Shown here piece after piece: positions 29,846 through 32,162 of a stretch of 64,000 nt of DNA. The translations under genes and the position numbers were made by a program. The notes beneath the pieces are model-generated. The model saw only the letters and a program-made list of their open reading frames with translations, was not told the DNA's origin and made no database searches. The stretch lies in the NCBI RefSeq assembly GCF_947036865.1, contig NZ_CAMQSF010000001.1, positions 248,001-312,000 on the forward strand, in the 5' to 3' direction. The stretch is from an uncultured Caulobacter sp. Its GTDB lineage: Bacteria > Pseudomonadota > Alphaproteobacteria > Caulobacterales > Caulobacteraceae. How positions within the stretch are numbered: the first letter of the stretch is position 1; each line of letters begins with the position of its first letter.

Positions 29846-30691
29846 ATGCCGAAGTCAGTCTTCAGCCGAAAAAGATCGTCGACGTCCGATGACGCGATCC
29901 TCAAGGCCCACGCGGTCGGCGAAGTCGGCTCTGGCGAGCCCGCCCTGGTGCTGCTTCACGGCTTCGGCGCCGACCAGGCGATCTGGCGGCGACTGACGCA
30001 CCGTTTCGCCGAGACGCGGCGCGTGATCCTCTATGATCAGATGGGATGCGGCGCGTCGGACCTCGCGCACTACGACCCCGAACGCTATCGCACGCTCGAA
30101 GGCTACGCGGACGATCTGGTCGAGATCCTCGACGCGCTGCGCCTGCGCGACGCCACCGTGGTGGCGCACTCGGTCGGCGGCATGATCGCTCTGCTCGCCA
30201 GCCTGCGCACCGACCGCATCGCGAGGCTGGCCATGATCGGCGCGTCGCCGCGCTACCTCAATGACGGCGCTTACGAGGGCGGCTTCGAACTTCAGGACGT
30301 CGAGGACTTCCTGGGCATGATGGAACTGGACTTCCAGGGCTGGGCCAAGACCCTGGCGCCCCAGGTGATGGACCAACCCGACAGGCCCGAACTGGTCGAG
30401 GAGTTGGTCTACAGCTTCAGCAGGGCCAACGCCGATCTCAGTCGGCGGTTCGCCAAGGCGACCTTCATGTCCGATCACCGCGCGCGGCTGGGGGAGTGCG
30501 CGTTGCCGACCCTGCTGCTGCAGACCCGCGTCGACGCGGTGGTCCCGCTGACGGCCGCGCGGTTCCTTGCCGATCACATGCCCAACGCGCGTCTGGAGAT
30601 TCTCGACGCGCGCGGCCACTACCCGCAACTGAGCGCGCCGGACGCCGTGTTCGCGGCCGTCGAGACGTTCCTGGCGGAGACGACGGGTTGA
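29846..30691 (+). CDS. RsbQ/KAI2/D14-type alpha/beta hydrolase
   Basis: 281 residues. Catalytic triad by motif: Ser109 (VVAHSVGG), Asp230 (QTRVDAVVP) and His258 (ARGHYPQLSAP), spaced as in RsbQ. The family-specific LHGFGADQAIWRRL and ILYDQMGCGASD..RYRTLEGYADDL closely resemble RsbQ and plant KAI2/D14 receptors. In B. subtilis RsbQ activates the PAS phosphatase RsbP during energy stress. Here its stop overlaps a PAS histidine-kinase gene (TTGA at 30688-30691). AAGGGGGAGG precedes the ATG. Cytoplasmic. Ligand unknown. Confidence 0.92.
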   Translation: MPKSVFSRKRSSTSDDAILKAHAVGEVGSGEPALVLLHGFGADQAIWRRLTHRFAETRRVILYDQMGCGASDLAHYDPERYRTLEGYADDLVEILDALRLRDATVVAHSVGGMIALLASLRTDRIARLAMIGASPRYLNDGAYEGGFELQDVEDFLGMMELDFQGWAKTLAPQVMDQPDRPELVEELVYSFSRANADLSRRFAKATFMSDHRARLGECALPTLLLQTRVDAVVPLTAARFLADHMPNARLEILDARGHYPQLSAPDAVFAAVETFLAETTG

Positions 30692-31776
30692 ACGGCGGCG
30701 GCGCCCCCGCGCTTGTCGACGCCGTTCCCGTGGCGCTGTTCGAAGCGGACCCGGACATGGTCATCGGGGCGGCCAACGCCCGAATGGCCGAGATGCTGGG
30801 GCTGCCGATGGAGGAGATCGTCGGCCGCTCCTTCCGCTCGTTCCTGACCCGCTCCTCGCAGTTCGTCTACGCGCTGAAGGCCGAGCCGTCGCTGGTCACG
30901 CGTCGCGCCACCGAGGAGACCTTCCTGGAACTGGACCACCGCGACGGCCGTCCTCGCGCGGTCCTGTTGACCGTGCGGCCGGACGCCGATCGTCAGGAGC
31001 GCCTGTACGGCGCCCTCTTCGCGGCCCCCGAGCGGCGCGCGTACGAACTGGAGCTGATCGCCGCCCGCCGCCTCGCGGTCGAGAATCTCGAGGCGCTCGA
31101 GCGCGCCCAGGGCGCGCTGCAGGACGCCAACGCCGAGTTGGCCCGGCTGGTCGACGAGCGCACCGCCGCCCTGGCGCAACGCGATCTGCTGCTCCGCGAG
31201 GTGTACCACCGGGTCAAGAACAACCTGCAAGTGGTGGATGGACTTCTGATGATGCACGCGCGCAAGATCAGGGATCCCGCCGGAACAGCGGCCTTCGACG
31301 ACGTTCGCAAGCGGGTCTTCGCCTTGGGTCTCGTGCACCACCAGCTGATGGGCTCGGCGGATCTCAAAACGTTCGACATCGGGGCGTTTCTATCGGAGCT
31401 GACGATGCATCTTCAGGCCGGCGCGCCCGACAATGTGACCTTGAAGATCGATTGCTCGCCTCTGAAGGTCGATCTGGACTTCGCCGTGCCGTTGGGCCTG
31501 CTGATCACCGAGCTCGTCACCAACGCCATGAAGCACGCCTTCCCTTCGGGCGGAGGCGAGATCGCCGTGGCGCTGGAGGGGCCCGTCGAGGGCGAAATGG
31601 CGCTGCGCGTCTCCGACACCGGCGTGGGTCTGCCCGCCGCCGCCGAGGATGCGAAGCCGTCGCTCGGGCTGGCCATCGTCAAGGGGCTCGTCCGCCAGCT
31701 GGGCGGGCGTATCGAGACCGGCGAGGGCGATGGGGTCCGGTGGGAAGCGCGCCTGCCCGCGCCGAGCGTGGCCTGA
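30688..31776 (+). CDS. Soluble PAS-HisKA_2 sensor histidine kinase
   Basis: 362 residues from a TTG that overlaps the hydrolase stop; the frame continues upstream inside the hydrolase, so the overlapping start is preferred. N-terminal PAS domain about 8-112 (VALFEADPDMVIGAANARMA), a coiled-coil about 115-165, phospho-acceptor His174 in LLREVYHRVKNNLQVVDG (HisKA_2), N-box ELVTNAMKHAF, DTGVGLP and GLAIVKGLV for ATP. No membrane segment. The probable input is the neighbouring RsbQ-like hydrolase, the probable output the following receiver. This pairing is inferred. Confidence 0.92.
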   Translation: MNGGGAPALVDAVPVALFEADPDMVIGAANARMAEMLGLPMEEIVGRSFRSFLTRSSQFVYALKAEPSLVTRRATEETFLELDHRDGRPRAVLLTVRPDADRQERLYGALFAAPERRAYELELIAARRLAVENLEALERAQGALQDANAELARLVDERTAALAQRDLLLREVYHRVKNNLQVVDGLLMMHARKIRDPAGTAAFDDVRKRVFALGLVHHQLMGSADLKTFDIGAFLSELTMHLQAGAPDNVTLKIDCSPLKVDLDFAVPLGLLITELVTNAMKHAFPSGGGEIAVALEGPVEGEMALRVSDTGVGLPAAAEDAKPSLGLAIVKGLVRQLGGRIETGEGDGVRWEARLPAPSVA

Positions 31777-32162
31777 TGCTGCATCCCGACCGCGTCCTGA
31801 TCGTCGACGACGAGTTCATCATCACCGAGACCTTGCGGATCTATGTCGAGGATCTGGGCCTGGAGGTCTGCGGCACGGCGGCGACGGCCGACGCCGCCGT
31901 CGACATGGCGCTAGCCCAAAAGCCTTTTCTGGTCCTGATGGATGTCCGCCTGCAAGGCGAACGCGACGGGGTCGACGCCGCGCTGGCCATCCATGAGCAG
32001 GTCGGGGCCAAGGTGATCTTCATCACGGGCTCGCGCGAGCCGGCGACCCTGACGCGCATCCAGAGCGATCATCCGGCCGGCATCCTGTTCAAGCCGATCT
32101 CGGAAGGCCAGCTCGTCTCGACGATCCAGCGCCTGCGGGCCGAGGCTTCGGAGGGCGCCTGA
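31776..32162 (+). CDS. Single-domain response regulator
   Basis: 128 residues. Receiver domain only: acidic pair in LIVDDEFI, acceptor Asp in VLMDVRLQGERDG, Thr/Ser in IFITGS, Lys in LFKPI. The VRLxGxxDGxxAA segment matches stand-alone receivers linked to HisKA_2 kinases. ATG shares its A with the kinase stop (TGATG). As the last gene of the operon it is the likely phosphate sink or transfers the signal onward. There is no output domain. Confidence 0.92.
   Translation: MLHPDRVLIVDDEFIITETLRIYVEDLGLEVCGTAATADAAVDMALAQKPFLVLMDVRLQGERDGVDAALAIHEQVGAKVIFITGSREPATLTRIQSDHPAGILFKPISEGQLVSTIQRLRAEASEGA

Follow-up and report, generated by a model that had tools for sequence, protein, structure and literature searches.

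Plant KAI2 and D14 receptors are alpha/beta hydrolases with a Ser-Asp-His triad and a four-helix lid, and they signal via an F-box protein. The bacterial hydrolase RsbQ belongs to the same class, and in Bacillus subtilis it is paired with RsbP, a protein in which a PAS domain is joined to a phosphatase of the PPM (PP2C) type that acts on the SigB partner switch. In 2011 Nadezhdin, Brody and Price (PMC3183031) described 45 pairs of an RsbQ homologue and an RsbP-type PAS domain, with a phosphatase, a histidine kinase or a diguanylate cyclase as output; the histidine kinase outputs were found in Gram-negative bacteria, and the authors called the cue to which this RsbQ-PAS module responds mysterious. 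Here we describe a locus in a stretch of 64,000 nucleotides (the window; positions 248001-312000 of contig C1) of a 4.25 Mb Caulobacter genome (G000), in which three overlapping open reading frames on the + strand span 29846-32162; their products are, in order, a hydrolase of the RsbQ type, a PAS-HisKA_2 kinase and a single receiver. We conclude that this is a real, conserved signalling trio. Its module class is known, its contact helix has diverged, and its output chassis is unusual and swappable.

The hydrolase has RsbQ (1wom) as its best match in the PDB (phmmer, E 5.1e-67), followed by a reconstructed plant-type hydrolase (7ukb) and by D14- and KAI2-type entries. In a Foldseek comparison of its AlphaFold2 model (mean predicted local distance difference test score, pLDDT, 91.7) RsbQ also ranks first, with a template modelling (TM) score of 0.91 and 41% identity, and the next entries are those of KAI2/D14 (query TM 0.85-0.90) together with 3qvm. 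The alpha/beta fold, the triad and the four-helix lid of the RsbQ/KAI2/D14 class are all present, and Ser109, Asp230 and His258 are identical across 12 aligned sequences, the window's included, which bears out both the class and the intact triad proposed in a preliminary description made from the DNA sequence. The hydrolase differs from the plant receptors in that its gene adjoins that of a PAS kinase.

In the kinase, Pfam identifies a PAS domain (PAS_4/PAS), a HisKA_2 domain (70.7 bits at a cut-off of 22.3; HWE_HK scores 29.5) and a HATPase_c domain, and the receiver is a Response_reg domain (61.2 bits) in a protein of 128 residues; a kinase of this composition lacking a membrane domain, and a single receiver as the third gene, had been correctly read from the sequence. 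The best NCBIfam models are PhyK for the kinase and PhyR for the receiver, both far under cut-off. The AlphaFold2 model of the kinase shows a PAS domain with an F-alpha helix (residues 55-71), and then one helix (116-193) that runs into the kinase part; with a pLDDT of 81.5 and a predicted TM score of 0.46, the placement of the domains in this model is unreliable. Scored against a profile of 99 PAS domains adjoining RsbQ homologues (canonical PAS domains), from which all members of the clade formed by this trio and its five close relatives were left out, the six clade kinases reach 82.5-93.8 bits. Only 11 of the 15 other HWE/HisKA_2 kinases of the window genome score at all, with 17.9 bits as the best value (one of the 15, C17_1 from a clipped locus, was read in the wrong frame and excluded from trees). 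By its profile score the PAS domain of the trio kinase thus belongs to the RsbP-PAS class. Its C-terminal end reads F(A/S)APERRAYELEL in 6/6 members (shared form RRxYExEL), and the DIT motif is absent, as in the RsbQ-PAS module.

Conservation was analysed in samples of 385 genomes of the class, 299 of the order, 149 of the family and 75 of the genus Caulobacter. An RsbQ-type hydrolase is found at E 1e-45 or better in 15 of the 75 Caulobacter genomes; hydrolases at least 69% identical to the window's occur in six, the window's included, and the remaining 69 are without one. Behind all six of these hydrolases (five relatives and the window) the full trio is present in identical gene order, and the kinases at least 63% identical to that of the window are those of the same six loci, with HisKA_2 scores of 67.6-74.2 bits in the five other members. 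The H-box, N-box, G1 and receiver motifs are retained in 6/6, and in the comparison of members third codon positions vary about 2-3.6 times as often as first or second positions. The gene overlaps at TTGA and TGATG reported earlier are both seen in the window (see table); the first recurs in 6/6 trios and the second in 4/6, the junction between kinase and receiver reading TGACCATG and TGACGATG in the other two. The trio lies in four gene neighbourhoods (compared over 16 kb of the window and about 9-10 kb of the other members), one common to G035, G536 and G576, and a separate one each for the window, G126 and G548; since gene order and first junction are unchanged across all of them, the trio stays together where its location differs. 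A kinase search of the order at E 1e-45 gave matches in 5 of 299 genomes, all of them Caulobacter and none of another genus, and RsbQ-type matches were obtained in 11 of 385 class-level genomes (E 1e-40, own genome included) and in 14 of 149 family genomes (E 1e-30). The linkage of hydrolase and kinase in related genomes, which the preliminary description had set as a check, is therefore conserved (6/75 Caulobacter genomes), and it is restricted to a subset of Caulobacter. One trio carrier, G576, has a separate RsbQ-PAS-HisKA module besides its trio (the two at loci L189 and L195), and offers a natural test of insulation between them; in another, G548, a further PAS-HisKA_2 kinase (63.3 bits; L190:7119-8225, - strand) is encoded about 1.5 kb from the trio.

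The trio resembles the B. subtilis RsbQ-RsbP system in hydrolase class, PAS class and gene order, and differs in that the output of RsbP is a phosphatase. With the RsbQ-PAS module as described in PMC3183031 it shares an RsbQ homologue directly upstream, an RsbP-class PAS domain in the most N-terminal position and a linker to the output that is a coiled coil in the module and is predicted as a single helix here, whereas the HisKA_2 type of the kinase, the separate single-domain receiver, the F-alpha contact helix and position C10 are different. The earlier statement that this exact arrangement was not known as described is not borne out in that form, since fusions of an RsbP-PAS domain to a histidine kinase, paired with RsbQ, have been published for Gram-negative bacteria (PMC3183031). 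The RsbQ-PAS-histidine kinase pairing in general is already known; the part not found described is the HisKA_2/receiver output. No description of an RsbQ module with HisKA_2 kinase and single-domain receiver was found in the open-licence literature, judged by titles and abstract openings, and the words Caulobacter, HisKA and HWE are absent from the main text of PMC3183031 (the figures and tables of its members lie outside this statement).

A survey of 115 RsbQ-type hydrolase genes in 114 loci besides the window (25, the best 80 of a longer list, and 9), in which L088/L157, and L161 and part of L191, are duplicate places, gives an impression of the outputs used elsewhere. Classed by similarity to a few seeds, a set without a PP2C seed, the gene after the hydrolase is of the HisKA type in 55 cases, GGDEF in 19, HisKA_2/HWE in seven and PAS only in 28, with no seed match in six, which leaves 34 outputs unclassed. 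Five of the seven HisKA_2/HWE outputs among the loci listed are members of the trio clade, and the other two are L088/L157, a single place in a Rhodobacteraceae genome. The kinase at this place (L088:5453-6793, + strand) has PAS domains and HWE_HK, and is the sole HWE/HisKA_2 output outside the clade among the loci scanned. In two Gram-positive RsbQ loci (L118:6818-7300 and L142:6814-7044, + strand) PAS and GGDEF are in separate frames, which may be a frameshift or a true split.

The kinase and receiver of the trio are not confined to RsbQ loci. Nine more loci in the 75 Caulobacter genomes match the kinase at E < 1e-55 (46-58% identity), over the catalytic half only in eight of them and over nearly the full length in one (G544), and in each the kinase gene is followed by that of a receiver of the same kind (139-167 bits to the window's). 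Eight of the nine carry the Pfam domain ETR1_N (118-125 bits, cut-off 27), in one case with an additional PAS domain, and the ninth (L210:4284-6352, - strand), in the trio carrier G548, has a sub-threshold DUF4118 and a PAS sensor. Residues matching D25, Y32, I35, P36, I62, C65 and H69 of ETR1 are present in 8/8 ETR1-type loci; Y32, I35, P36 and I62 are presumably part of its ethylene/copper site. The other three residues (D25, C65, H69) are named for this site in PMC11819568. The same source describes AzoEtr1-AzoRRetr1 of Azospirillum, where a kinase gene overlaps that of a 135-residue receiver without output domain, as in the ETR1-type Caulobacter loci; its sensor is an ethylene-binding membrane domain, in contrast to the RsbQ-PAS sensor of the trio. 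ETR1_N occurs in 10/75 Caulobacter genomes, eight times on the trio-type kinase/receiver pair and twice on HWE kinases. The eight ETR1-type loci also have LysR-like and quinone-reductase-like neighbours in common (named by eye).

Comparison of these 15 loci supports well the view that the kinase/receiver pair is a chassis common to RsbQ-PAS and ETR1-like sensors in Caulobacter. PhyK, LovK and C24 of the window genome form a branch of their own, separate from the 15 kinases of the chassis (89/95). The 15 receivers of the chassis group together, apart from PhyR, LovR and an MrrA-like receiver (90/94); both trees carry long-branch warnings, and each receiver tree left out at least five own receivers, C17_329 among them. 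Within the chassis these trees do not settle which sensor came first. The RsbQ trio and the ETR1-type chassis occur together in 0/75 genomes, and mutual exclusion is not claimed, since only about 0.6 co-carriers would be expected by chance from six and eight carriers. It is conceivable, though we consider it doubtful, that a swappable HisKA_2/receiver chassis was fitted independently with two homologues of plant hormone receptors (the KAI2/D14-like RsbQ-PAS and the ETR1-like sensor), each in different species, and that plant signals resembling butenolides and ethylene would in this way reach a single phosphorelay, perhaps that of the stress/attachment network. Outside the genus, G494 encodes two MASE4-HisKA_2 kinases, each followed by a trio-type receiver, one of which is 55% identical to the window's. 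In the same genome several trio-like kinases and receivers lie side by side (L249:1424-8988), one kinase with MASE4 by Pfam and the others GAF-like by eye.

We propose that in the trio a sensing module of the RsbQ-PAS type, in diverged form, is placed on a HisKA_2 kinase that has a single-domain receiver of its own, and give this reading, its proposed working included, a probability of about one half. The working that we infer concerns the ligand, the contact between hydrolase and PAS domain, the direction of control and the link to PhyR. A small molecule would enter the hydrolase pocket or be cleaved there, after which the hydrolase would touch the N-terminal PAS domain of the kinase or pass a product to it. 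The resulting change may run along the long helix (residues 116-193) and alter the phosphorylation of His174, with phosphate supplied by the kinase itself or by another receiver, the latter being the route published for PhyK and LovK. Phosphate could then be exchanged with Asp56 of the partner receiver, which has no output domain and most likely relays the phosphate, drains it or binds a partner. The likeliest network in the genus would be the MrrA-PhyK-PhyR-NepR-SigT stress relay. Energy stress was rejected as the signal: nothing in the sequence points there, and it is an assumption according to the 2011 paper as well (PMC3183031).

Several observations, at the sensor as well as at the output end of this scheme, weigh against it. 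In B. subtilis RsbP the PAS residues F55 and Y59 are needed for signalling, F55A and Y59A being null with a disturbed RsbQ interaction (PMC3183031). In 6/6 clade members (numbered as B. subtilis RsbP through a constant offset of 5) the F55 position is V/I and the Y59 position is K; the C10 position is V in 6/6, and the P86 position is A in 4/6. The F-alpha helix, usually GGRIYFETHFAPLL in canonical PAS domains, has become SSQFVYALKAEPSL in the clade. L48, Q53 and E72 are retained, and L13 and C56 are replaced by F and Y. We have classified the domain as a diverged variant and not as a canonical RsbP-PAS because the F55/Y59 positions are replaced; these residues are not strictly defining, since the usual residue class is missing at one or both positions in 28 of the 99 canonical PAS domains, and in three (L075, L082, L090) both positions deviate. 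The trees of hydrolase and PAS domain disagree over the nearest relatives and so do not support an arrival of the pair as one unit; joint inheritance from relatives of L073-L075, with which the PAS tree agrees (96/89) and the hydrolase tree does not, is not claimed. The replaced contact residues in an otherwise intact PAS domain, and the incongruent trees, would suit a co-transcribed enzyme that makes or removes the PAS ligand without docking and feeds a conventional PAS kinase. We regard this as rather unlikely: the PAS domain belongs to the class found together with RsbQ, and those canonical PAS domains that deviate also adjoin an RsbQ homologue, so that deviating residues are by themselves no proof of lost contact. 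Moreover, at 24 hydrolase positions the residue kept in at least 75% of 107 canonical hydrolases is replaced in 6/6 clade members. Together with the rewritten PAS helix, these changes could be explained by a re-matched interface, or else by a loss of contact. That a metabolic esterase has come by chance to lie ahead of a two-component pair would agree with the matches of the hydrolase to generic esterase and enol-lactonase families, which remain below their cut-offs; this is highly improbable in view of the conservation in 6/6 members across four neighbourhoods, where the first two genes always overlap, the RsbQ top match by sequence and fold, and the RsbP class of the PAS domain.

At the output end, the proposed diverged RsbQ-PAS module has several links to the PhyR network. 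The window genome encodes PhyR and NepR, with an adjacent sigma-type match; the trio kinase groups with PhyK, LovK and C24 of that genome, apart from the HWE kinases (100/100), and with the NCBIfam PhyR model the trio receiver scores second to PhyR itself (80.8 bits, against 78.9 for a LovR-like receiver). With the SigT consensus, which we take to be GGAAC-N16/17-CGTT, no SigT-type promoter could be identified within one mismatch in the 300 bp upstream of the trio (0/6) or upstream of the sister chassis loci (0/9), some gene starts having been set by eye; three of the four core genes used as controls matched exactly (nepR-sigT, phyR, lovK), and phyK did not match. The reading of the locus as SigT-regulated was rejected on this result. 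The receiver has KVIFITGSREP in place of the PFxFATG motif of MrrA/SdrG, which excludes an MrrA/SdrG orthologue. In both Caulobacter and Sphingomonas the stress response is a point of convergence for HisKA2/HWE kinases, and at least six histidine kinases pass phosphate to MrrA of C. crescentus (PMC5964349); the alphaproteobacterial general stress response is coordinated by HWE/HisKA2 kinases (PMC12148442). The MrrA donors named in PMC5964349 are of the HWE (CC2554 and four in a figure legend) or HisKA (CC2874) type, and according to this source PhyK and LovK showed no autokinase activity and acted as phosphotransferases; the trio kinase, with these as its nearest HisKA2 proteins, may therefore not be an autokinase either. 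We put the chance that the trio feeds the PhyR stress network at even odds or less. That the pair does not feed PhyR, the receiver serving either as an insulated output or, like LovR, as a phosphate sink, with attachment, cyclic di-GMP (c-di-GMP) or something else as its target, is a serious alternative that we place somewhat below an even chance. It agrees with the separate grouping of the chassis receivers, with the missing SigT promoter and with a receiver homologue fused to PAS-GGDEF-EAL in another alphaproteobacterium, and the published convergence of HisKA2/HWE kinases on the stress response argues against it. The fused receiver (L252:2989-5475, - strand) follows a trio-like kinase and hints at c-di-GMP turnover.

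The LovK-LovR and PhyK-PhyR systems (PMC5964349) share the HisKA_2 class with the trio, and LovK-LovR is also a kinase-like protein with a PAS-type (LOV) sensor accompanied by a single-domain receiver. The LOV motif NCRFL is absent from the trio kinase, and the trio lacks the SigT promoter that lovK has in this genome; PhyK and LovK moreover fall, with C24, on the separate branch of the kinase tree mentioned above. A LovKR orthologue was ruled out, the genome's own LovK/LovR being taken as the C33 pair, which has NCRFL. The MrrA-like receivers of the window genome are C62 (PFAFASGYG) and C17 (PFAFVTGYG), neither of which matches the published motif exactly.

Table. Features of the trio (positions in the window) and its ETR1-type sister loci.
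Feature	Position	Strand	Basis or remark
RsbQ/KAI2/D14-class alpha/beta hydrolase, 281 residues	29846..30691	+	frame extendable to TTG 29777; phmmer, alignment, Foldseek
Catalytic Ser109 codon (HSVG)	30170..30172	+	alignment
Catalytic Asp230 codon	30533..30535	+	alignment
Catalytic His258 codon (GHYP)	30617..30619	+	alignment
TTGA, hydrolase TGA stop overlapping kinase TTG start	30688..30691	+	present in 6/6 members
Kinase, 362 residues, TTG start: PAS, helical linker, HisKA_2, HATPase	30688..31776	+	Pfam, AlphaFold2
RsbP-class PAS domain (by profile), residues ~8-112	30709..31023	+	Pfam, PAS profile, AlphaFold2
F-alpha helix of the PAS domain (residues 55-71), sequence rewritten in clade; serves as contact element in B. 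subtilis RsbP	30850..30900	+	
HisKA_2 dimerization/phosphoacceptor region with HRVKNN; His174 codon 31207-31209	31198..31416	+	Pfam
HATPase_c catalytic domain	31489..31761	+	Pfam
TGATG, receiver ATG overlapping kinase stop	31774..31778	+	present in 4/6 members
Single-domain response regulator, 128 residues; Asp56 codon 31941-31943	31776..32162	+	Pfam
ETR1-type sister loci L209, L211-L217			in G544, G557, G541, G542, G082, G116, G558, G540

In the window the trio is preceded by a nucleosidase-like gene, and a upp-like gene lies downstream in convergent orientation, 3 bases off (both recognised by eye).

An RsbQ module wired to a histidine kinase offers a direct biochemical readout, phosphorylation, for tests of ligand and interface, and RsbQ is the nearest solved bacterial protein to this hydrolase, just ahead of the plant KAI2/D14 receptors. 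The common chassis allows a controlled comparison in which the same kinase and receiver are combined with a different sensor (RsbQ-PAS, ETR1-like or other). Should PhyR prove to be the output, one module would act as sensor for two unrelated general stress responses, that of SigB in Bacillus and that of SigT in the alphaproteobacteria.

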